The position numbers and the translations under genes were made by a program. Source: a virus. From it: a stretch of 20,564 nt of DNA. The notes under the pieces were generated by a model, which was not told the DNA's origin, searched no databases, and was given only the letters and a program-made list of their open reading frames with translations. The stretch's first letter is position 1; every line of letters starts with the position of its first letter. Positions 2,906-15,456 of the stretch are shown piece by piece. The stretch is taken from the IMG/VR virus record IMGVR_UViG_3300021962_007699, positions 1-20,564 of that record; one strand, given 5' to 3'.

Positions 2906-3435
2906 TAAACTTCTGTATCTACTGTTACATCTACTTCTTCAGCTCCACCACCTCCAGCAGTATCACCGCCTCCAGGTGCAGCAGCTTCAGAACCACCTCC
3001 ACTATCACTACCTGGGAAGGAACCTCCACCACCTGTTGAATATGAAGCTTCATCTTGTTCACCCATAATGTTAGGGGCACCATGTCTCAAAATACGAGAA
3101 ATTGCTTGTTCACAATTTTCTTGTTCATTTAGATTGAGTAAATAATATTTTTTACCTTCTACTTCAGCAATCCAACTTCTAGTATTGTATACTAAATAAA
3201 AGTTTTCACCGTTTTTAAGGTTGATGCGGAATGTAGTTGGTTTTGGAGCTACCCAATCAATTGAAGCTAAGAAAACATCGAATTGTGGGCCGAGTAGGTC
3301 TACAATGATGTCCTTTAGTTCTGGGAATTTGGTGAGTTCGTCGTATTTTTCAGCTGTAATGTCTACAAGCTTTTTCTCACCATAAACCGTTTTGACTAAA
3401 AGTTTAATTTTTTCTCTTAGTTCCGATTTTTTCAT
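2905..3435 (-). CDS. phage protein with MKKSEL leader and glycine-rich tail, function unknown
   Basis: The protein has 176 residues. The first residues, MKKSELREKIKLLVKTV, nearly match the leader of the 311-residue protein starting at 6164 (MKKSELKEMIKAAFLAE). Both contain L-x-E at 6-8. A compact middle domain (about 25-115) has TTFRINLKNGENFYLVY and EVEGKKYYLLNLNEQENCE, a beta-rich pattern. From about residue 124 the chain is low-complexity, rich in Gly, Ser, Ala and acidic residues, and ends VDVTVDTEV. The stop and start codons are shared with both neighbours (TAATG at 3435 and 2905), indicating coupled translation. No enzyme motif was recognised. A minor virion or internal-head protein is possible by context. 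Confidence 0.75.
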   Translation of the reverse strand: MKKSELREKIKLLVKTVYGEKKLVDITAEKYDELTKFPELKDIIVDLLGPQFDVFLASIDWVAPKPTTFRINLKNGENFYLVYNTRSWIAEVEGKKYYLLNLNEQENCEQAISRILRHGAPNIMGEQDEASYSTGGGGSFPGSDSGGGSEAAAPGGGDTAGGGGAEEVDVTVDTEV

Positions 3436-4712
3436 TATCTAGCTTGTTGTTTTTTAGTTGGGCCTTTACCACCACCTTTTGCTTTGTAGTTAGCTACAGC
3501 ACCTGCAATAGCAGTAGCTGCTTTTTTAGATTTACCTTGTTTTTCTAATTTACCAACAAGTTTTTCGAATGATTCGTCTACTGATTCAGAGGTTGTTTTA
3601 CCTGGGAGGATTACAAGTCTTTTGGTTTTTGCACCATTCCAAGTTCTCCCATCACCACCGTCTTTAAATTCAAATTGGGGGAAACCTTTTTGTATTTGGT
3701 CATAGAATCCAATTGCTTTATCACCTACTAAGTCGGCTACGACTCTATCGTCTTCAGAGTATAGAAAAACGTCTTTTGAATCCATAGTTCCATCAGCAGG
3801 TTTTTTATTTAATACTACTTCACCTTTTACTAATTCGACATCAGCACCCATTTTTTTAAACCCTAAATATAGTTGTTTAGCTACATTTTTAAGTTCTAAA
3901 TTACTAGCTGCACTTTCGTCTAATTCAGCTGTTGCTTTTTTAAAGTAACCTTTTGGTAAACCTTCTTCAACACCTACATTATCTAAAGTGCCTGACATAT
4001 CAATAACGTCTACAGCAGCATCGATTTCTGGTTCTTTGATTTCAAAATCAAGATAGTGTTTAGCACCTACTAAGTTATTTTTAGCTGTGATAACTTTAGC
4101 TTGCCACCAATGTGGAAAATCAACCTCACCTTTACCTTCAAACTCATCTACCATTTGGTAAAGTTCCATAGCGTATTTTCCAATACGGTATAGATCAGCT
4201 TTTAGCATGTGTGGTTCGTTGTCTTGGTGACCTAAATCTAGATCTTCTTCTAAACTTGGATCTTCGTAATCAGCATCTTCTAAATCAACTTCAAAGTCTT
4301 TAAGAGAAACTACAATAGTTTGACCACCCACGTTTACGGCTACAGAGCCGTTTCTTATAAGATTTTGGTGATCTTCGTCTGTTAAAACAACAGCTTGTTT
4401 TAGCTCATCGATAACGCCTCTACCTTTTAAGATATCGGCTTTGGTCACTTTACCATCACCTGTTAAGTCAGGAAATTCTTTTTTTTCTGGGATTGGTTGG
4501 CTTAAAGCAGCTTTAACCATTTCTCTAAGTTTATTTTGTTCCATGTCTTGTTCAGCTAATTTTTTGGCTAGGTTTGTTGCGCGACCATACATTACTTTCT
4601 CAGCGTCAGCACCATATTTTTTAACTAAGTTGCGCTTATTTTTCTTCATACTCATGATGAGATCTTCGCGCTTGGCTAATTCTGCTTTTGAAAGTTTTTT
4701 TTCGTTGAGCAT
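3435..4712 (-). CDS. phage protein with EF-hand-like loop and duplicated leader motif
   Basis: The protein has 425 residues. Residues 19-54 (KKYGADAEKVMYGRATNLAK and flanks) form a basic helical segment I recognise from T4-like marine phage proteins of unknown function. Residues 60-71 (NKLREMVKAALS) repeat the leader motif seen at the N-terminus of the 311-residue protein (SELKEMIKAAFL). Residues 82-93 (DLTGDGKVTKAD) fit a dockerin/EF-hand calcium loop, with D82, T84, D86 and D93 in ligand positions. The middle is acidic. The C-terminus from about 385 is lysine-rich (KLEKQGKSKKAATAIAGAVA then GGGKGPTKKQQAR). The start at 4712 follows the previous stop by seven bases in an A-rich, SD-less context. 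The function is unknown. It is likely virion-associated. Confidence 0.78.
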   Translation of the reverse strand: MLNEKKLSKAELAKREDLIMSMKKNKRNLVKKYGADAEKVMYGRATNLAKKLAEQDMEQNKLREMVKAALSQPIPEKKEFPDLTGDGKVTKADILKGRGVIDELKQAVVLTDEDHQNLIRNGSVAVNVGGQTIVVSLKDFEVDLEDADYEDPSLEEDLDLGHQDNEPHMLKADLYRIGKYAMELYQMVDEFEGKGEVDFPHWWQAKVITAKNNLVGAKHYLDFEIKEPEIDAAVDVIDMSGTLDNVGVEEGLPKGYFKKATAELDESAASNLELKNVAKQLYLGFKKMGADVELVKGEVVLNKKPADGTMDSKDVFLYSEDDRVVADLVGDKAIGFYDQIQKGFPQFEFKDGGDGRTWNGAKTKRLVILPGKTTSESVDESFEKLVGKLEKQGKSKKAATAIAGAVANYKAKGGGKGPTKKQQAR

Positions 4713-4719
4713 TTTTTAT

Positions 4720-5037
4720 TTAGTCAAGTGTAACGTCAGCAAACCACTTGATATCACCACTTGGTAATAATTCAATTTTGATATCAGGATTACCTTCTAA
4801 CGTAGCTTTACCACCAATTTCATCTAAGTAAGATGAAAGAGCAATAAACTGATCAGCATCTTCATATTGTTCGCTATCACCATATTCATCTTTTTCCCAT
4901 ACACCTGTTGTAGGGCCTTCAGCGTCTTGAGGTACGCTAAAATTATACAAAGCTGAGATGTAATCCTCAAATTGAGAGATGTTTTCTTTTAGTAAGCGAC
5001 CTTCAGCGAGGTATTTTCTTAAATCGAAGTTATCCAT
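4720..5037 (-). CDS. small acidic phage protein with leader-like N-terminus
   Basis: The protein has 105 residues and is strongly acidic after the N-terminus. It starts MDNFDLRKYLAEGRLLKEN, an amphipathic helix with L-A-E (10-12) and L-K-E (16-18), the kind of site cut by T4-type prohead protease. The MDxFD opening is shared with the 173-residue protein starting at 7695 (MDKFDTSRWMKNNLL). The body has EKDEYGDSEQYEDADQFIAL and ends with a short beta-like segment, IKIELLPSGDIKWFADVTLD. No known domain was recognised. It sits six bases after the histone H1-like gene and seven before the EF-hand protein gene, so the three probably share a transcript. Confidence 0.7.
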   Translation of the reverse strand: MDNFDLRKYLAEGRLLKENISQFEDYISALYNFSVPQDAEGPTTGVWEKDEYGDSEQYEDADQFIALSSYLDEIGGKATLEGNPDIKIELLPSGDIKWFADVTLD

Positions 5038-5228: not shown

Positions 5229-6164
5229 TTATTTAATTTTGTTCCACATTGGGAATATTGATTCGTTTAAAGATTCTTTAAGACCAGCCATTTTAGCAAC
5301 ATTTGGAAGGGCTTCGAGAGCATCGCTATTGTTTTTGAGGAAGTTTTGAGCCCAATCCATGCCTGGGGTGATATCGTCACGGAATTGTTTTTTAACTTCC
5401 ATGTAGTCTTCGATACTCATTTTTTCAATTTCATCTTTCTTTCTTACTGTGTCTTTGTGGTCATGAGAGCCATTTCCACCACCATTATAAAAAATCCAAT
5501 CTTTAATCCCATTAAGAATTTCTATGTCTTTTTTCTTTTGTTCTTCAGCTTTCTTTTTACCACCGCCAAATAAGCCAAATAATTCGTTTACTTCTTCTTC
5601 AAGTCCTAAACCAGCTTCCATTTCTGCAGTTGATTTTTCTGAGTCGATGTTTACATCAAGCTCACCATCACCTTCTTCAATACCTTGTGGGTTTGGAGCA
5701 TCACCTGCAACTACGAAGTCACGAGTAAAGAAAGTGATTGTATTACCAACCTGAGTGATGAACTTTTGGTCACCAAACTCTTCGGCTTCAGCTCTTAAAG
5801 TTTCAAGGGTGTCTAAGATTTTTCTTGTAGCACTAGGAAGTGAAGATAAAGAAACAATTTTCTTATCTACTACGATTGAATCGTTAGCTGTTTCTACTTC
5901 TTCGTCGTCAGCAGATAAGTCAGTATCAGCAGCATCGATTTCTTCGCCAGCGTCTATATCAACGTCTTCTTCGTCTTTAACTTTAACTTTAACTTTAACG
6001 TCTTCTTCTTCAGCTTCGGCTACTACTTCTTCTTCAGAAAGACGAGCTAATAACTCGTCGAGGTCTTCTTCACCTTCAGCCATATATGGATCTACTACGT
6101 CGCCGTCAGCTTTTTCAGCTAAGAAAGCGGCTTTGATCATTTCTTTTAATTCAGATTTTTTCAT
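5229..6164 (-). CDS. acidic phage protein with MKKSEL leader, function unknown
   Basis: The protein has 311 residues. The leader MKKSELKEMIKAAFLAEKA has L-x-E sites at 6-8 and 15-17. Residues 30-95 are extremely acidic, with an alternating KVKVKVK insert (DVKVKVKVKDEEDVDIDAGE). A folded segment follows at about 98-155 (SLPSATRKILDTLETLRAEA then FITQVGNTITFFTRDFVV). A second low-complexity region with GGGKKKAEEQKKKD precedes a C-terminal helical part ending GLKESLNESIFPMWNKIK. The long acidic stretch resembles scaffold/core or internal-head proteins in style, but no homology is proven. The gene has a 33-base upstream gap with a CATATTTA box 25 bases before the ATG. Confidence 0.75.
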   Translation of the reverse strand: MKKSELKEMIKAAFLAEKADGDVVDPYMAEGEEDLDELLARLSEEEVVAEAEEEDVKVKVKVKDEEDVDIDAGEEIDAADTDLSADDEEVETANDSIVVDKKIVSLSSLPSATRKILDTLETLRAEAEEFGDQKFITQVGNTITFFTRDFVVAGDAPNPQGIEEGDGELDVNIDSEKSTAEMEAGLGLEEEVNELFGLFGGGKKKAEEQKKKDIEILNGIKDWIFYNGGGNGSHDHKDTVRKKDEIEKMSIEDYMEVKKQFRDDITPGMDWAQNFLKNNSDALEALPNVAKMAGLKESLNESIFPMWNKIK

Positions 6165-6197: not shown

Positions 6198-6488
6198 TTA
6201 TTTTTTGTGATACGTACCCTTTTTGTACTTAGCTTTGTTAGTATTGGAAACAAATTGTTTTCCTTTACGAGACGCAGCTGCTTTTTTGCGAGATGTTTTA
6301 GCTCTTTCTGCTTTAGTTAGTGATTGGGCTTTTTTCTTAGGCAAACAACGTGTTGTAGCATCGCCTTTTTTCATTGTACCACAAGGGCCGGTAATATTAC
6401 CAGCCGTATCAATTCTCACCCACTCTTCTTTTTTGAACCAATCGCGGAGAGATTCTTGAATTATTTCTTGTAGACGTTCGTGTGTCAT
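6198..6488 (-). CDS. small lysine-rich phage protein with two conserved cysteines
   Basis: The protein has 96 residues and is very basic. It opens with an amphipathic helix, MTHERLQEIIQESLRDWFKK, holding L-Q-E (6-8) and I-Q-E (10-12). The rest is a compact module: WVRIDTAGNITGPCGTMKKG (C36), TTRCLPKKKAQSLTKAERAK (C48), then a Lys/Arg-rich tail with KGKQFVSNTNKAKYKKGTYH. The CGT-x-RCLP-x-KA pattern is one I have seen in proteins of T4-like phages and cannot assign a function to. The composition suggests nucleic-acid binding. The start overlaps the preceding stop by four bases (ATGA at 6488-6485). Confidence 0.75.
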   Translation of the reverse strand: MTHERLQEIIQESLRDWFKKEEWVRIDTAGNITGPCGTMKKGDATTRCLPKKKAQSLTKAERAKTSRKKAAASRKGKQFVSNTNKAKYKKGTYHKK

Positions 6489-7174
6489 CCTTTCATTTGA
6501 CCTTTACATACCTTAACAGCACGACCTGAAAGGTAGGCGGATGATTTTTCACCAGCAGCCATTCTCTTTTTAAGGTATGCTTTACCTTTTGGGCAAAGTT
6601 CCTCGTTTAGGTTTTCTCCTAATTGTTTTGTTTCGTCAATGTCTTGAACAATTTTCATTAAAATTTTGTTCATTACGTCTGGTGTAAGGCCTTTAGTTTT
6701 ACCGTCTGGGAATTCAGGATCGTCTTTTAAGTATTTTGAGTAGCCTTCAACTTCTTGAATTTCAGCTTCTGGGTCTAAATTTTTATAAACGTCTCTAACT
6801 GCTTTTTTTAAGATTTCAATAGCTTCACCTTTATCAGCTTTTGATGTAAAGAATTTAGCTGCGATATCACGAGCCATTCTTTCAATTTTATCTTTAGGAA
6901 CTAACATCTTTTCGTCTAATTCCTCTTTAGGTGGAACTAAAGTTTCATAATCGTCCATTGATAATACACCTCTTGCTTTTACAGCTTCGATAGCGCGTTC
7001 AGCTACCTCGTGTAAATCCATATCATCGCCAGCGTCTTCTCTAGCGAATTCAAGTAAACGGATAAATAAAGGAACGTCTACGGCAATGATGTCTGGGATA
7101 TCGTTTGATACATTGGTTTCGGCTTCACCAATTCCTTTTAAAAAGAATTCTTTAATTTTTTGTAAATCTTCCAT
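6485..7174 (-). CDS. phage protein with acidic helical body and two-Cys basic C-terminal module
   Basis: The protein has 229 residues. The N-terminus MEDLQKIKEFFLKGIGEAET is amphipathic, with I-x-E sites at 7-9 and 15-17. Residues 25-180 are mostly helical and acidic, with EYGxS-type order-breaking segments (VEGYSKYLKDDPEFPDGKTK). The C-terminal 37 residues form a separate basic module, ELCPKGKAYLKKRMAAGEKS (C194) to RAVKVCKGQMKG (C223), which looks like a portable small domain because the linker before it is acidic. The gene sits between TAATG (7174, with the upstream gene) and ATGA (6488, with the downstream gene) overlaps, so it is translationally coupled on both sides. The function is unknown. 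Confidence 0.75.
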   Translation of the reverse strand: MEDLQKIKEFFLKGIGEAETNVSNDIPDIIAVDVPLFIRLLEFAREDAGDDMDLHEVAERAIEAVKARGVLSMDDYETLVPPKEELDEKMLVPKDKIERMARDIAAKFFTSKADKGEAIEILKKAVRDVYKNLDPEAEIQEVEGYSKYLKDDPEFPDGKTKGLTPDVMNKILMKIVQDIDETKQLGENLNEELCPKGKAYLKKRMAAGEKSSAYLSGRAVKVCKGQMKG

Positions 7175-7695
7175 TATTTCATCATTTTAGATAATTCGGG
7201 ATTCTTTGAAGCGTAATAACGGAACAATGCTTTACCTAAAGTACCTTTAACTTTATCAGAAACATATTGTTTAAATGGTAAACCTTCTAAATCAGCGTCA
7301 ATTAAAGCATTAAGCTCTTTTTGCATTTCACTTGATTTATTAGCTTGACCCTCATATTTGTCAGCAATAGTTTTAATGCTTGCTTTATGTTTATCTAAGA
7401 TTTCTCTTGCTTTAGCTGTAGCAGATGAAAGAGCTTCGGGTGAGTCTGGGTAGTAATCGTCTTTAACTTCATTTACAGATTCTTCTATGCCTAATTCAGC
7501 ATGAAGAACTTCCATAAAATTATTATAGTTGTGAGTGCCATAATCTTCTCTTAAGATTTTAGCTACAGCTTTTGCAAAATCAGAGTATGAAGTATCCTCA
7601 GGAATTACTTTTCCTAACTCGTTGGCGAGGCTTTCGCTTAGGTGCCTGTTCAATAGATTGTTCTTCATCCACCTGCTCGTGTCGAATTTGTCCAT
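7174..7695 (-). CDS. helical phage protein of unknown function
   Basis: The protein has 173 residues. It opens MDKFDTSRWMKNNLLNRHLS, with L-S-E at 19-21, like the leader of the 105-residue protein at 5037. The body is nearly all helical by composition (ATAKAREILDKHKASIKTIA, SEMQKELNALIDADLEGLPF) and it ends YYASKNPELSKMMK. Its 5' end overlaps the 3' end of the 98-residue gene by 98 bases in another frame. Both starts look genuine because each protein begins with a well-formed N-terminus. No catalytic motif was seen. Confidence 0.72.
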   Translation of the reverse strand: MDKFDTSRWMKNNLLNRHLSESLANELGKVIPEDTSYSDFAKAVAKILREDYGTHNYNNFMEVLHAELGIEESVNEVKDDYYPDSPEALSSATAKAREILDKHKASIKTIADKYEGQANKSSEMQKELNALIDADLEGLPFKQYVSDKVKGTLGKALFRYYASKNPELSKMMK

Positions 7696-7930: not shown

Positions 7931-8487
7931 GATTCGAGGTATTCAATAGTTTCTTGCATACTTTTATAAGCTAGTTCTTTATTTATACCACCTTTCCAAT
8001 TTTCAACATCACCAGCTTCAGTTACAAATCCTTGATTTGATGATGTAAGCATATCTTCAGCCCAACTTTTATATTCCTGAATGAAATCTTCTACAGCATT
8101 ATTAACCATTGCTTTTTTCCAGTCATCCCATAAACCATTTAGTTTTAGTTCGTGTTCAAAATCAACATGACAATTAAAACAACGTCTATAGTTGTTCCAA
8201 AATAATTTATCGTTATTACTTTTCATTACTTTTTTACAAGAAGGACAAAACATTGGCATAGCTAATGATTTTGCTTTATCTAATTTAGTAATGTTTTGTT
8301 TAATACCATCCTTAATAGTCCACTCACGACCACTTTCAGTCCAAATATCACCTTCTTGACGGTGTTCTTGTTTTTTAGAATAACCAGTACCTACGGTTGT
8401 TTTTTCTCCGTATTTACCAGTCATAATATTTCTTAGTCGTTGTACGTCTTTTTCAACAAATTGTTTTTTTAAAACGTTATCTTTCAT
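7918..8487 (-). CDS. zinc-ribbon phage protein, function unknown
   Basis: The protein has 189 residues. Two CxxC pairs, CPSC (81-84) and CFNC (103-106), set 18 residues apart, form a probable four-cysteine zinc ribbon. It is flanked by KSLAMPMF and an acidic HVDFEHELK stretch. Upstream of the ribbon, GDIWTESGREWTIKDGIKQN at about 47-66 is conserved in T4-like phage proteins as I remember them, without a known role. The C-terminal third is helical and acidic (VNNAVEDFIQEYKSWAEDML). The start overlaps the preceding stop by four bases (ATGA at 8487-8484), coupling it to the four-module enzyme gene. It could bind DNA or act as a small structural protein. Confidence 0.78.
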   Translation of the reverse strand: MKDNVLKKQFVEKDVQRLRNIMTGKYGEKTTVGTGYSKKQEHRQEGDIWTESGREWTIKDGIKQNITKLDKAKSLAMPMFCPSCKKVMKSNNDKLFWNNYRRCFNCHVDFEHELKLNGLWDDWKKAMVNNAVEDFIQEYKSWAEDMLTSSNQGFVTEAGDVENWKGGINKELAYKSMQETIEYLESLKQ

Positions 8488-10718
8488 AAACCTAATTCTT
8501 TTAAATCTTGTATAACCTGACTTGCTGATTTATAGTGGATACCTATACCACCTTTAGATTTCCAAGCATCAATTGTATCTTGTCTATCATCAATCAAAAT
8601 GTAATTTTGATGTGAAAATTTAGCTTTGTTTTTAGCAGCTGCAAAATAGATTTTTTTCATATTGGGTAAACGCTTAACCCAATCTAATTTACCTAAAATT
8701 GATTCATTAACGTCTCTATCATAACGTAATTCTTCTGGGAAGTCGAAATTTACTGCTGGGGCTGTTAGCACATATGGGTTGTATGGAGCAATAAAGTCCC
8801 ATAATTCTTTTCCACCTGGTTGCCAGTCTAAGTTAGCCCAAAATGATTCTTCACTAATATCTTTATCTTTTAGACCTTGTCTAAATGCTTTCCAAAATTC
8901 TTTTTTTTCTTGAACATCAGCATGGTGAGTTTCTTTACCAGTTAATTCTTTGTATCCTTTATCAAAGTCAACTAATACACCATCCATGTCACAAAATATA
9001 ACGGGCTTTTTCAATAGTTTTTTTTCTTCAGTTTCTTCAAATAAGGGTAAAGCTAATGCTTTATTTCGTTTTCTCCAAAGATTAAGTATTTCTTCTTTAT
9101 CTTCGGCACTAATAGGTTGAGTGGCTAAATAAGCTGCTATTACGTCTTTAAATGGACGTCTTGATTTTTTAGCTTTGTAATATAAACCTTGAAGCATTGC
9201 ATCTACTTCTTTTTCTAATTTAAAGTATTCTTTTTTAGGAAGTAGATCCATTTTGATCATCTTACGAAGCATAGAATCATCAGATAATTGCTTTCCACTG
9301 CGTACATTAGCACCATCTTGAGTTAAATGTTCAAGTTCGTGTCTAATAACGTCTTTTAAATCGAATGAAACTGTTTGCCAGTCTATATCTTTTGGAATTT
9401 TAAAGCGAACTGAAAGAAGTGGTTGGATTTCATCTCCCTCATCATCAAATCCAGCATTTGCACCTCCATCTACTGTATAGGTGTCTTCTGTATATGTAGC
9501 CTGAACATTAAAATCAAATTCAAAATCATCAGATATAATATCTGAGTCTTCATCTTCAGGGCCTATTGTAAATGTTTCATCTACTACTTTTCTATTTACA
9601 TCATATCCATCTTTTATTACCCCAAAGGCTAAACGTGACAGTTGGTTTGTAAATTTATCGTAGCGACCTTCATTTAAAGGTTCTTCATCTAAACGAGCTA
9701 ATTCATAAGCAAAAGCATTTAGACCGAATGGGTCTTTTACTTTTTTTTCTTGTAAACTATCAGTCCAATTTCTAAAAGCGATATTACCTTCCTCGTATGC
9801 TTCTCTTTCAATACTATCTAAGTGGTCGTCTTCAGTAGTGTTTGTAGTAGTAATATTACCTAATCTATCTTCTAGATTTTGGATGTGATGTATCATTTCA
9901 TGTGCGTAAGAACGCACAATATCTTTGGGATGACGCCCTTGAGTATATAGGACAATGAGTTGCTCGTTAGGATCGTAGTATGCGGTTTTACCGAAGAAAT
10001 CTTGTGAATTGTCTACGTCACTATCTATAACTTTAAGGCCAGGTAATGGTTCAATTTTGTAACCTTTATCAATCATGTGTTTAGTTAATTGTCCACATTT
10101 TTCAATAAGATCTACTGTGTTAGTATGAGCCATATGTTCTTTGAGAATAGATTTATCTACAATGTTGTAAATTTCTTCTTTTTCACCTGGTGGTACTTCA
10201 TCTGGGAGGAATGTAAGGAATGCTTCTTTATCTCCCTTTGATGCTGCTTTACGAGCGTTAGTTCCACTAACTTCAGGGTCTGAAGTGGAAATTACTTTAA
10301 CTTCTAGGTTAGGGTATTTGTCTTCTACCCCTTTAGTTCTAGCAGCAACGTCTTGTAAATCATCTTGTCTACCTTCACGATACCCAATTACAAAATAAAC
10401 TTCTTCTGTTGGGTGATCTTTAGCATATCTTAATACATCGCGAATAGGTTGAGATGAAGGGACAATTTTAACTTTAGGACCTAATACTTCTGTGTAAATA
10501 TCCCAAATAGCTAGGGATGCTTCTTGGGTAAGACCATCTCGAACACCACCACCTACATAGATAATAAATTCATCAATTTCAGGAAATTCTTTTAATGCTT
10601 TTTTTACTAAGTTAAAGTGTCCTTTAATAGGAGGTTTAAAACCACCACCATATACAGCAGTGACTCTTCTATCATCTTCTAATAAAGGGTGGATAAGTTC
10701 TTTAACTAATTGATTCAC
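8484..10718 (-). CDS. four-module protein: nucleotidyltransferase, two HExxH modules, NT5C-type HAD phosphatase
   Basis: The protein has 744 residues and starts with GTG at 10718 (GTGA overlap with the kinase gene). A leader (MNQLVKELIHPLLED, L-L-E at 12-14) precedes a cytidylyltransferase-like domain at about 18-195. That domain has VYGGGFKPPIKGHF (22-35, the GxFxPxHxGH-type nucleotide site) and EVSGTNARKA (149-158, equivalent to the ISSTxIR motif). Residues 200-345 carry YAHEMIHHIQ (HExxH at 273-277) with a following DSIEREAYEE that could give the third zinc ligand. Residues 350-550 carry VIRHELEHLTQ (HExxH at 460-464) and a later KEVDAMLQGLYYKAKK. Residues 571-744 are a HAD fold of the 5'(3')-deoxyribonucleotidase type: CDMDGVLVDFD (576-586), LTAP (651-654), AAKNKAKF and LIDDRQDTIDAW (709-719). 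The key residues of all modules are present. The substrates are unknown. Confidence 0.85.
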   Translation of the reverse strand: MNQLVKELIHPLLEDDRRVTAVYGGGFKPPIKGHFNLVKKALKEFPEIDEFIIYVGGGVRDGLTQEASLAIWDIYTEVLGPKVKIVPSSQPIRDVLRYAKDHPTEEVYFVIGYREGRQDDLQDVAARTKGVEDKYPNLEVKVISTSDPEVSGTNARKAASKGDKEAFLTFLPDEVPPGEKEEIYNIVDKSILKEHMAHTNTVDLIEKCGQLTKHMIDKGYKIEPLPGLKVIDSDVDNSQDFFGKTAYYDPNEQLIVLYTQGRHPKDIVRSYAHEMIHHIQNLEDRLGNITTTNTTEDDHLDSIEREAYEEGNIAFRNWTDSLQEKKVKDPFGLNAFAYELARLDEEPLNEGRYDKFTNQLSRLAFGVIKDGYDVNRKVVDETFTIGPEDEDSDIISDDFEFDFNVQATYTEDTYTVDGGANAGFDDEGDEIQPLLSVRFKIPKDIDWQTVSFDLKDVIRHELEHLTQDGANVRSGKQLSDDSMLRKMIKMDLLPKKEYFKLEKEVDAMLQGLYYKAKKSRRPFKDVIAAYLATQPISAEDKEEILNLWRKRNKALALPLFEETEEKKLLKKPVIFCDMDGVLVDFDKGYKELTGKETHHADVQEKKEFWKAFRQGLKDKDISEESFWANLDWQPGGKELWDFIAPYNPYVLTAPAVNFDFPEELRYDRDVNESILGKLDWVKRLPNMKKIYFAAAKNKAKFSHQNYILIDDRQDTIDAWKSKGGIGIHYKSASQVIQDLKELGL

Positions 10719-11512
10719 GATGCTAAGAATGACTTTAATTTTTGTTGTGCTTCTTCAGCGCTTACTACTTGTTGAACTGCTTTAGTAACGTTTTCTTTTG
10801 ACATTAAATCACGAACTTCATCTTCAAGTTTTTCTCTTTGAGCAATAGAGCGTGCTTGTTCTTTTTCTGATTTTTCTTTAGTATCAGTAGGAATATAAGG
10901 TTTAATATATTGATCAATAATATCCTCTAAGTCTCTAGCGTCTACTAATTTTTTATCTTTTGTAGTAGCAACAAAATTATTACCAAATAAATCTAAATAT
11001 GGAATAAAATTTTTAGTTACATTAGCCCATGTTTGCATTACAATAGAAGGCATTAAGCTTCTATCTTCACCTCCTGAGCGGTCAAATCTATCTTCGTTTT
11101 TACGTAATGATTTTTCTAATGAAGCATAAACGTAAACCATAAACACTTCATAGCCAGCAGCTTCTAATTTTTCTTTTAGTTGTTTTGTTTTATTATATGA
11201 AGCAGCAGTACCATCGATTACGATATCTTCTCTATTTTGAATTTCTTGATCTAATTTTTGTTGATATGATTTTTGAGCAGCTTGCATTGCTTTGGCAGCT
11301 TTACTTCTACCTTCAGAGTCTGCTTTTTTTAGATCTAATGATACACCTGATGCTTTTAGATTAGTAATAAAGTCATCATCAATGTTTAATACTTTGAGTC
11401 CACTGATAATGTCACCTACAATAGATGATTTACCAGCGCCTGGGGCACCAGCTAAAATAATAGCTTTAGGAGCACCTTGTGCTTCTTTTAAAAGTTCCAT
11501 AAGTGAAATCAT
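10715..11512 (-). CDS. P-loop kinase (zeta-toxin/AAA_33-like)
   Basis: The protein has 265 residues. The short leader MISLMELLKEAQ (L-K-E at 8-10) directly precedes KAIILAGAPGAGKSSIVGDI, a strand plus Walker A (GxxxxGKS, 22-29). NIDDDFI at about 43-49 follows and may bind the acceptor. REDIVIDGTAA at about 94-104 is the Walker B-like strand, and KNEDRFDRSGGEDRSL looks like the arginine-rich lid. This order matches small-molecule/polynucleotide kinases of the zeta-toxin and AAA_33 type. The C-terminal 50 residues are a charged coiled-coil-like tail. The gene overlaps the four-module gene by four bases, so the two enzymes are made together. Possible substrates are nucleosides, NAD precursors or nucleic-acid ends. 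A UDP-sugar toxin role is less likely because no antitoxin is seen. Confidence 0.82.
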   Translation of the reverse strand: MISLMELLKEAQGAPKAIILAGAPGAGKSSIVGDIISGLKVLNIDDDFITNLKASGVSLDLKKADSEGRSKAAKAMQAAQKSYQQKLDQEIQNREDIVIDGTAASYNKTKQLKEKLEAAGYEVFMVYVYASLEKSLRKNEDRFDRSGGEDRSLMPSIVMQTWANVTKNFIPYLDLFGNNFVATTKDKKLVDARDLEDIIDQYIKPYIPTDTKEKSEKEQARSIAQREKLEDEVRDLMSKENVTKAVQQVVSAEEAQQKLKSFLAS

Positions 11513-13239: not shown

Positions 13240-13270
13240 TGAATATACGAAATAAATTTCGCTACTCAAA
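13240..13270 (-). promoter_or_regulatory. Bacteroidota-type promoter candidate for primase and nuclease
   Basis: Coding-strand TTTG (13270-13267) is followed after exactly 19 bases by TATATTCA (13247-13240), six of eight matches to TAnnTTTG if N is counted as matching. The ATG at 13234 is five bases beyond the box, again predicting a near-leaderless message. The spacer holds a 14-base inverted repeat. Confidence 0.45.
13248..13261. repeat. 14-base inverted repeat in the promoter spacer
   Basis: CGAAAT-AA-ATTTCG is a perfect inverted repeat in the 27-base gap between the GIY-YIG-like gene and the primase gene. It lies between the -33-like and -7-like boxes, so an operator role is possible. 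The two-base loop and lack of a following T-run make it a poor intrinsic terminator. Confidence 0.3.
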
Positions 13271-13705
13271 GTCTTTTCTAAAAAACTTACCTAAAATGTT
13301 GTCGTTAAAATATTCATTTGGTTTTTGTAATACCTCATAAATGAATAATGCTTTTGTTTCCTCGTAAGTTAATAACTTTTTATTTGGAACACACGTTAAA
13401 ATTTCACGTCTAAAATCTGATTGTTTACCTTCTTTAATTAGCGCCATAATTTCTTTATGGGAACCATAGTAGGTTTTCCAATCCGATTCTGAAATAACTT
13501 GTTTGTAGGTTGGTCTACGTCCTTTTTCACCTTCGTAAATAGCCAAATCTTTTTTAGTTAATTTAGCTTTACGAGTAAATTGTAGGACTTTTTTTCCTAT
13601 ATAAATTTTTCCTGAAGGTTTATGGATAACTCTGTAAACAAAACCAAAGGTTTGAGGAGGTAAATCCTCAATCGAAGTTATTTCTTCGCCTTTATAATAC
13701 CACAT
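13262..13705 (-). CDS. GIY-YIG-like protein, SegE-type
   Basis: The protein has 147 residues. GFVYRVIHKPSGKIYIGKK (21-39) is the GIY...YIG pair of strands, in the degenerate form GFVY...YIG. After an insert with KLTKKDLAIYEGEKGRRPTY comes DWKTYYGSHKEI (75-86), as in T4 SegE-like proteins where W-x-x-Y-x-GS follows the YIG strand. FRREILTCVPNK at about 98-109 supplies the conserved arginine, and ALFIYEVLQKPNEYFN carries the expected glutamate. The enzyme would nick or cut DNA. It could be a free-standing homing endonuclease or a domesticated phage nuclease. It lies between the tail block and the primase. It is free-standing, and no intron is visible. The start at 13705 is SD-less (ACACTAAAAT before ATG). 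Confidence 0.75.
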   Translation of the reverse strand: MWYYKGEEITSIEDLPPQTFGFVYRVIHKPSGKIYIGKKVLQFTRKAKLTKKDLAIYEGEKGRRPTYKQVISESDWKTYYGSHKEIMALIKEGKQSDFRREILTCVPNKKLLTYEETKALFIYEVLQKPNEYFNDNILGKFFRKDFE

Positions 13706-13722: not shown

Positions 13723-15456
13723 TTATGTTGTAGATGTTAACACCCATCTAGACTGATTAGTAGCAGCTCCAATTGTCAATCCTGTGAGATATACAAAAGT
13801 TGCTGTTTGGTTTATACCAATAGTTTTATTAGCTACTCCTAATACAAATCGGTTTGAAGCTGAGGATGCTGTATCTTCTTGGGAGAATGTTACGTTAGCA
13901 CTTGTAGTATTAGCTATAACAATAAGACGTCCTGAGGTACCATTTGCAAATCCGTTTATATCAATACCTCCATCTCCAGTAAGCTTAAATAAAGATTCAG
14001 ATCCTAAGTTGTAATTGTTTATATCACCAGATTCACTATCAGCAGGGATATTATCACCTTCACTTAAAGTAACGTTTCCTGAAAATGATGTACCACTTGA
14101 ACCAGATGAACCTGATGTACCTGAAGTGCCATTAATACCTGAAAGGCCTGATGTGCCTGAAGAACCTGAGGTACCAGAAGTTGTACCAAAGAAAGATATA
14201 CCTGAAGTTCCTGAAGTACCATTTATACCTGAAAGACCTGAAGTACCGGATGAACCTGAACTGCCTGATGTACCGCTTGAACCAGATGAACCGGAAGTTC
14301 CACTTGAACCAGATGTTCCTGATGAACCTGAAGATCCACTAGTTCCTGATGTACCTGATGTACCATTAATACCACTTAAACCAGAAGTACCTGAAGAGCC
14401 ACTTGTGCCAGATGAGCCTGATGAACCAGAAGTTCCTGATGAGCCTGAAGAACCACTTGTACCTGATGAACCACTTGAACCTGATGTTCCTGAAGTACCT
14501 GAAGTTCCGTTAATACCTGAAAGACCTGATGTACCTGATGAGCCTGAGCTACCTGATGTACCACTTGATCCAGATGAACCTGAGGTACCTGATGAACCGG
14601 AGGTACCTGATGAACCTGAAGATCCACTAGTTCCTGAAGTACCTGAAGTACCATTTATACCTGAAAGACCTGATGTACCTGATGAGCCTGAGCTACCTGA
14701 TGTGCCTGAAGAGCCGGATGATCCACTAGTACCTGAAGTACCATTGCCTGAGGTACCTGAAGATCCACTAGTTCCTGAAGTACCTGAAGTACCATTAATG
14801 CCACTTAAACCTGAAGTACCACTTGAACCAGATGAACCTGAAGAACCACTTGTACCTGAAGAACCTGAAGAACCACTTGTACCTGAAGAACCTGAGGTTC
14901 CTGATGAACCTGATGAACCGCTAGTACCTGATGAGCCTGATGTTCCATTAATACCACTTAAACCTGATGTACCTGATGAGCCTGATGAACCGCTTGATCC
15001 TGAAGTACCAGATGTACCAGATGTACCATTAATTCCTGAAGTACCAGATGAACCACTTGAACCTGAAGTGCCCGATGAACCTGAAGATCCACTAGTGCCT
15101 GATGTTCCTGAAGTTCCACTTGAACCTGATGAACCGCTTGATCCTGAAGTACCTGAAGTACCAGATGTTCCTGATGTAAATGATGTTGCAGCGCCCCAAG
15201 CCCTTAATTCTCCTGTAGAATTGTTACGAACTATTATATTATATCCTGTAGCAGGTTCGGGAGCATCTAAAATGTCTTCGTTATATAATGAACCGCTAAT
15301 AGTTAAACTACCACTAATTTCAATATCATAGCTAGCTTCACCTGTAAATGCTTCTACAGACTGAGAAACATGCCATGCGTTAATAGTATAACTCTGATCT
15401 ATTTGATCGCTTCCTGAGTTAAAAATGTCTAGTAGTCTATTGGTTCCTTTTGCCAT
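13723..15456 (-). CDS. collagen-like repeat virion protein (tail fibre/adhesin candidate)
   Basis: The protein has 577 residues. The N-terminal 94 residues form a folded head (MAKGTNRLLDIFNSGS; later GYNIIVRNNSTGELRAWGAA) that probably attaches to the virion. Residues 95-458 are Gly-x-Ser triplets, mostly GTS and GSS, nearly without proline, with GLSGING spacers about every 48 residues. The C-terminal 119 residues form a compact beta domain (GDGGIDINGFANGTSGRLIV, FVYLTGLTIGAATNQSRWVL) that may trimerise and bind receptor. This head-stalk-tip order is typical of phage fibres. Two breaks in triplet phase occur, at the SGNGTSG site and the GISFFGTT site. The gene lies seven bases from the next structural gene, in the same transcript. 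The long opposite-strand open frame here is a by-product of the repeat. Confidence 0.85.
   Translation of the reverse strand: MAKGTNRLLDIFNSGSDQIDQSYTINAWHVSQSVEAFTGEASYDIEISGSLTISGSLYNEDILDAPEPATGYNIIVRNNSTGELRAWGAATSFTSGTSGTSGTSGSSGSSGSSGTSGTSGTSGSSGSSGTSGSSGSSGTSGINGTSGTSGTSGSSGSSGSSGTSGLSGINGTSGSSGTSGSSGSSGTSGSSGTSGSSGSSGTSGSSGSSGSSGTSGLSGINGTSGTSGTSGSSGTSGNGTSGTSGSSGSSGTSGSSGSSGTSGLSGINGTSGTSGTSGSSGSSGTSGSSGTSGSSGSSGTSGSSGSSGTSGLSGINGTSGTSGTSGSSGSSGTSGSSGSSGTSGSSGSSGTSGSSGTSGLSGINGTSGTSGTSGSSGSSGTSGSSGTSGSSGSSGTSGSSGSSGTSGLSGINGTSGTSGISFFGTTSGTSGSSGTSGLSGINGTSGTSGSSGSSGTSFSGNVTLSEGDNIPADSESGDINNYNLGSESLFKLTGDGGIDINGFANGTSGRLIVIANTTSANVTFSQEDTASSASNRFVLGVANKTIGINQTATFVYLTGLTIGAATNQSRWVLTSTT
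14083..15174 (-). repeat. collagen-like Gly-[T/S]-Ser coding repeat with about 145-base higher-order unit
   Basis: About 1.09 kb encodes tripeptides GTS/GSS. The GLSGING spacer occurs seven times, and a GTSGING form once. On the plus strand the matching cca-tta/ttt-ata stretches start near 14131, 14219, 14363, 14504, 14651, 14793, 14945 and 15027, mostly 141-152 bases apart with shorter end units. Third positions vary freely, so the protein pattern is kept more strictly than the DNA. Confidence 0.9.

Follow-up and report, generated by a model that had tools for sequence, protein, structure and literature searches.

The analysed stretch of viral DNA (20.6 kb, the window) carries an ORF at 8484-10718 whose start overlaps the upstream gene by 4 nt; the plus strand across the same interval is full of stops. 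The ORF is a real coding gene, because relatives are encoded by 228 candidate stretches found in an IMG/VR search (80 of which were kept) and dN/dS, calculated against two relatives (L002 and L008), is about 0.2 in every module. The source is probably a T4-like phage related to Flavobacterium phage Immuto. A preliminary description of this DNA had reported four enzyme-like modules in one 744-residue chain, and these are seen in the minus-strand ORF. All of the motifs it named are present and intact in the translation: GGGFKPPIKGHF in the first module, SGTNAR at residue 151, HEMIH at 273 and HELEH at 460 in two separate HExxH modules, DMDGV at 577 and LIDDR near the C-terminus. The features of the gene, in the order of the protein, are as follows.

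8484-10718, minus strand: complete gene for a 744-aa product, running from a GTG start codon at 10718 to the stop at 8484.
10677-10718, minus strand: tag at the N-terminus (residues 1-14, MNQLVKELIHPLLE), which ends in LLE and is predicted to be a capsid-targeting propeptide.
10146-10667, minus strand: HIGH-superfamily nucleotidyltransferase (NTase) module, residues 18-191.
10137-10145, minus strand: joint 1, LKE (192-194), predicted cleavage site before M1.
9726-10136, minus strand: M1, zincin module, residues 195-331.
9888-9902, minus strand: HEMIH (273-277) in M1, nearly invariant in A2/A3.
9669-9677, minus strand: joint 2, LNE (348-350), followed by GRYD; predicted site of the cut in front of M2.
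9039-9668, minus strand: M2, zincin-like module, residues 351-560.
9327-9341, minus strand: HELEH (460-464) in M2.
9036-9044, minus strand: joint 3, LFE (559-561) at the M2-HAD border, the weakest predicted site.
8487-9011, minus strand: NT5C-type HAD phosphatase module, residues 570-744.

Library support is uneven over the chain, with Pfam matches below the curated cut-offs and almost no signal for the two HExxH modules. An AlphaFold prediction of the full chain with 50 sequences gave a mean pLDDT of 84 and a pTM of 0.38; in this model the modules appear well formed and their mutual arrangement does not appear fixed. The pLDDT fell below 50 at residues 11-14, 192-201, 325-328, 332-349 and 562-568, the first of these stretches following a predicted helix (2-9) in the N-terminal tag. 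The first module had been called cytidylyltransferase-like, and the family name bears this out (phrog_3041 cytidyltransferase, 4.7e-7). The predicted fold, however, is like that of the CoaD/NadD adenylyltransferases (CoaD 6b7b, VIA Z 18.0, rmsd 2.3, 154 aligned; NadD, Z 14.7), so that the label would apply by family name only. The module has the GxFxPxxxGH-type (GGGFKPPIKGHF) and SxTxxR-type (SGTNAR) motifs of the HIGH superfamily, and it scored 20 bits with the CoaD equivalog NCBIfam TIGR01510, under the cut-off of 103.3. The last module, described as an NT5C-type HAD phosphatase, kept that assignment: it has the DxDGV and DD motifs (DMDGV and LIDDR) and matched PHROG_2643, a 5´-3´ deoxyribonucleotidase family (1.2e-22), and, by profile, the mitochondrial 5´ nucleotidase 4mum (1.4e-4), with 17.6 bits for Pfam NT5C, under the cut-off of 24.8.

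The two HExxH modules were modelled together (residues 195-565, pLDDT 81), and the candidates from a Foldseek search with this model were re-aligned by VIA. The top rows for M1 were nearly all zincin metallopeptidases (Wss1, Z 8.6; BepA, 7.7; IrrE, 7.2; Spartan, 6.9; ArdC, Z 6.2, rmsd 3.7, 97 aligned). These scores are moderate; even so, the rows all point the same way and fit the HExxH motif, which suggests that M1 is zincin-type. Foldseek alone gave no significant match of M1-M2 in the PDB, and a PDB sequence search with the M1-M2 alignment gave no relevant one. The fold hits of the 195-565 model in the PDB were zincins for M1, with none covering M2. In the full-chain model, M2 has a helix, strands, the HELEH helix and a helix with KLEKEVDA, which holds a conserved Glu. 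Compared with the zincin-like MPTase arrangement (a HExxH helix after a sheet, then a Glu helix), M1 thus agrees in topology and fold and M2 in topology. The Pfam family MPTase-PolyVal (PF18818) weakly matched 8 of 72 members, with a best E of 0.017. Structure prediction with a fold search, which had been proposed as a check on the modules, recovered the NTase and the M1 zincin and gave the topology of M2 without fold hits.

Among the relatives, the order of the modules varies. IMG/VR was also searched with M1 alone, which returned 242 stretches, and with M2 alone, which returned just two loci because the patterns were too specific. In complete ORFs from 164 loci (identical sequences counted once, some loci from one contig), the orders were NT-M1-HAD (31), NT-M1-M2-HAD as here (28), NT-M1-M2 (15), NT-M2-M1-HAD (3), NT-M1-M2-M2-HAD (3) and still rarer ones. 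M2 can be absent, doubled or ahead of M1, and HAD is a gene of its own in several relatives; the NTase stands ahead of the zincins and HAD last, with a variable middle. A survey of homologs for the same order thus found it repeatedly, but not as a fixed order. The preliminary description had matched the chain to no standard pathway enzyme, and the varying order and number of modules agree with this and rule out a pathway enzyme of fixed order; the order seen here is one state of a shuffling set rather than a fixed enzyme architecture. An assembly error or chance fusion, which had been named as what would overturn the observation, is excluded: the same order occurs in 28 complete ORFs and relatives number more than 200, with the fusion on many independent contigs. 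The related objection, that the modules are separate genes, holds for HAD in some relatives, Immuto included, while the fusion is real elsewhere. Against the closest relative (L001), codons 1-580 are nearly identical, differing at 12 nucleotides, and codons 581-744 differ at 68. This sharp rise from codon 581 on makes the HAD module (8484-9011) look recently exchanged by recombination, with a break near the M2-HAD joint.

Further cassettes are inserted in relatives, including superoxide dismutase, plastocyanin, zinc ribbon and basic peptides, and the long relatives are strings of units between [LIVM]xE motifs. One 1253-aa protein (L029 3071-6832), a chain of up to ten or so cassettes, has between LxE motifs a superoxide dismutase of the Fe/Mn type (4.5e-29) and a domain resembling plastocyanin (6.8e-14). 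Other inserts gave weak matches to GNAT and ADP-ribosyltransferase models, which we treat as leads only. The same cassette can stand inside a chain or alone: in L132 an IGDLSQ cassette lies within the protein, after LNE, and in L022 it directly follows the tag MKLTDIIFEKLNE in a stand-alone 219-aa gene. A GLWANI peptide follows LxE in several proteins and contexts. Multi-cassette proteins with the same LxE joints and no HExxH motif were also observed (L031 10488-13412, L077 7545-9743, L014 11553-13121 and L026 8544-9743); their loci also carry the zincin fusion.

The linkers ahead of the modules differ widely among relatives, yet end in the same short motif. In the protein studied here, LLE (12-14), the end of the tag MNQLVKELIHPLLE and followed by D, precedes the NTase, and the joints match the low-pLDDT stretches 11-14, 192-201, 332-349 and 562-568. 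Using 18-residue windows around the module starts, we found [LIVM]xE in 20 of 21 independent contexts at the tag-NTase border (a count that covers tagged proteins only), 36 of 37 before M1, 19 of 19 before M2 and 23 of 28 before HAD. The corresponding shuffled-window means were 9.9, 9.2, 7.3 and 13.9, and not one of 2000 composition shuffles gave counts as high as those found, for module start coordinates picked after the alignment had been looked at. The frequency in module interiors was 9-14%. Before M2, [LIVM]xE was followed by G in all 21-23 independent upstream contexts, and the HAD joint was less regular than the others. The motif is short, with 15 [LIVM]xE triplets in the 744-aa protein, most of them inside folded modules, and the P1´ residues at the joints (N, H, G, D and E) are not all confirmable as T4 sites. 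BLAST breakpoints were tried as unbiased cassette borders and rejected, as their ends were too fuzzy (35% at the 5´ side and 44% at the 3´ side lay ≤4 residues from LxE, versus 14% at random). Of 100 NTase-first relatives, 77 have a tag ending in an L/I-x-E type motif and 23 start directly at the NTase; nothing else speaks as strongly as these tagless relatives against N-terminal targeting as a universal feature.

Tags of this kind are not confined to the fusion gene; most same-strand genes around it in the window carry them.

10715-11512, minus strand: upstream zeta-toxin-like P-loop kinase (PF06414, 2e-17) with its own short tag, MISLMELLKE.
7174-7695, minus strand: downstream gene with an FD-type N-terminal tag (MDKFDTSRWMKNNLLNRHLSE).
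6198-6488, minus strand: downstream small basic gene with the tag MTHERLQEIIQE.
5229-6164, minus strand: downstream gene with a KKSEL-type tag (MKKSELKEMIKAAFLAE).
4720-5037, minus strand: downstream gene with an FDL-type tag (MDNFDLRKYLAE).

Elsewhere in the window, the gene at 13262-13705 has the PHROG family label 'NAD synthetase', as does the annotation of its Immuto homolog; the label looks wrong because Pfam matches SegE GIY-YIG endonuclease at 1.2e-27. Between this gene and tail-type genes, 13723-15456 encodes a 577-aa protein consisting mostly of GTSGSSG/GINGTSG repeats. The product of 3435-4712 has a dockerin-like loop (DLTGDGKVTKADI), similar to one in Immuto gp192.

In T4, the gp21 protease cuts after L/I-X-E, and internal proteins carry targeting propeptides of 10-19 residues (PMC9026906). 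Twelve long contigs with the family were examined, and Peptidase_S77 (the gp21 homolog) was found in 10 and Gp23 in 9. The capsid protein propeptides of relatives hold LLE/S, LLE/G and ILE/N (the slash marks the presumed cut), and the gp21 homologs hold LNE/S, LTE/N or LTE/G near the N-terminus and LNE/GK, LVKE/GK or similar near the C-terminus; the module joints carry this motif as well. The window itself is a fragment without head genes and has no gp21, and we therefore infer gp21 in the source phage from relatives. A gp21 search of the closest relative's contig, an 18.9 kb fragment, was empty and uninformative.

The cultured phage Immuto provides the context that the window does not, four records of it being the only relatives in the phage collection that cover most of the query. 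In Immutovirus immuto (MW353175), gp183 and gp184 likewise comprise NTase, M1, M2 and HAD homologs in the same gene neighbourhood, and gp183 has MAE then GRYD at the M2 joint, as in this family. The two differ in that gp183 is 907 aa long with an extra N-terminal domain of ~290 aa, and HAD is the separate next gene, gp184, with its own tag (MGNLADLLLEE). By eye, the N-terminal ~290 residues of gp183 (L084 45132-47855) resemble a Pol-beta-type nucleotidyltransferase (GSxxAGSKxDFGDLDIIV); a Pfam search with them gave no match. Immuto encodes gp20, Peptidase_S77 (8.9e-35) and gp23, and its fusion gene is part of a block that extends to the terminase, portal, protease (gp21) and capsid (gp23) genes. 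N-terminal [LIVM]xE tags are found in 23 of the 28 genes in this block and in 36 of the 137 genes outside it (Fisher p = 4e-8). The product gp204 (L083 15216-16457), encoded between protease and capsid genes, ends in RWQKLAGIIK, resembling other Immuto N-terminal tags (FRRMQKLAGIITE), and the two could perhaps share a core-binding motif. A literature search for Immuto virion proteomics found none; a paper on phages from strains including LMO8, the host of Immuto, mentions neither Immuto nor mass spectrometry.

Because the joints carry the cutting signal of T4-like head proteins, a packaged polyprotein is probable. We give a probability of roughly 0.62 to the reading of the gene product as a T4-like phage's head-cargo polyprotein, which is cut by gp21 in the prohead and whose units are ejected with the DNA. 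The first ~14 residues would serve as a propeptide that targets the chain to the capsid, taking it into the prohead core. There a gp21-type serine protease would cut after L/I/V/M-x-E at the disordered joints, which would strip off the tag and free the NTase, the zincin-type modules and the HAD nucleotidase. Once ejected into the host alongside the DNA, the freed proteins would work separately as effectors early in infection, acting on nucleotides and on proteins of the host. We infer packaging, cleavage, ejection and each enzyme activity from sequence and predicted structure; the joint motif, the head-gene context in the cultured relative and the gp21 homologs in relatives lend indirect support to packaging and processing, an idea that the preliminary description had raised conditionally before this evidence was available.

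Parts of this scheme are known from other systems. Polyvalent proteins (Iyer et al., 2017, PMC5512222) likewise combine several unrelated enzyme domains in one phage chain (2-15 domains of disparate activity, compared with four modules in one ORF here), have zincin-type HExxH modules in one or more copies, recombine in cassette-like fashion, are encoded near head genes (here in a relative) and are predicted to be injected. Unlike this family, a term search of that paper gave no cytidylyl- or adenylyltransferase, HAD or phosphatase, superoxide dismutase or plastocyanin. T4 IPI-III and Alt (PMC9026906) have, as here, an N-terminal propeptide of about 10-19 residues and an L/I-x-E motif, and T4-type gp20, gp21 and gp23 also occur in relatives of this family; the T4 internal proteins are described as single cargos with a terminal propeptide, whereas here the motif recurs between the folded modules of one chain. 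The ejection proteins of SPN3US/phiKZ are similar in being packaged head proteins cut by a prohead protease C-terminal to Glu, but in the parts of that report consulted (PMC5694885) the SPN3US motif is A-x-E and processing is mostly removal of an N-terminal propeptide, and these parts describe no chain of several enzymes that has a cut site between every two of them. The chain thus fits polyvalent proteins in the features compared and would work like T4 internal proteins. A literature search of open-licence papers found no cargo polyprotein described in which every joint carries a head-protease motif. What is new is the gp21-type motif at the joints of a multi-enzyme chain; polyvalent proteins and the processing of T4 internal proteins were known.

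For polyvalent proteins, autoprocessing by the zincin metallopeptidases has been proposed (Iyer et al., 2017, PMC5512222), and here too the zincin modules of the chain, rather than gp21, could process it, either ahead of packaging or inside the host. M1 is present in nearly every relative fetched, although in part due to the search queries, and in the fold comparison it matched zincins best, ArdC among them. We nevertheless regard this as unlikely, given that zincin-free multi-cassette proteins of the same phages have the same joints and that stand-alone tagged genes, the capsid protein and gp21 carry the same motif. It also seems improbable that the product is one uncut multi-domain enzyme, packaged or expressed, with LxE as a recurrent linker feature of mobile modules. 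The joint counts exceed those of composition shuffles, and the motif is the same before unrelated modules and at the N-terminal tags of separate genes; such a reading would nonetheless accommodate the chance frequency of the motif, linkers rich in Glu and Lys, the relatives without a tag and the N4 virion RNA polymerase, which is packaged unprocessed despite a zincin domain (PMC5512222). Least likely is a metabolic fusion protein that stays inside the infected cell, where it would repair the pools of nucleotides or NAD, and is never part of the virion. Although the NTase fold is near CoaD/NadD, HAD is NT5C-like and phages carry HIGH-superfamily NadM/NadR enzymes (PMC9503650), two zincin-type modules and inserted cassettes fit no such pathway and the surrounding genes are tagged and adjoin head genes in Immuto.

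Returning to the packaged and gp21-cut polyprotein, we tentatively extend it to many T4-like phages, which may make head-cargo polyproteins with a gp21 site at each joint and cassettes exchanged with tagged single genes. In the broad reading, to which we give a little less than even odds, targeted chains of exchangeable enzyme, metal-protein and basic-peptide cassettes would be cut in the prohead into a mixed payload. The cut sites predict the exact peptides to be expected in virion mass spectrometry, making packaging and processing testable in a cultured phage. If the reading is true, a single targeting tag would suffice to load several enzymes into one head at a fixed ratio, new cargo would be gained by inserting a cassette between two cleavage sites, and tags and joints would provide a sequence rule to predict injected proteins among the unknown genes of T4-like phages. 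The broad system, if true, would be the dsDNA-phage counterpart of animal-virus polyproteins, cut by the capsid maturation protease.
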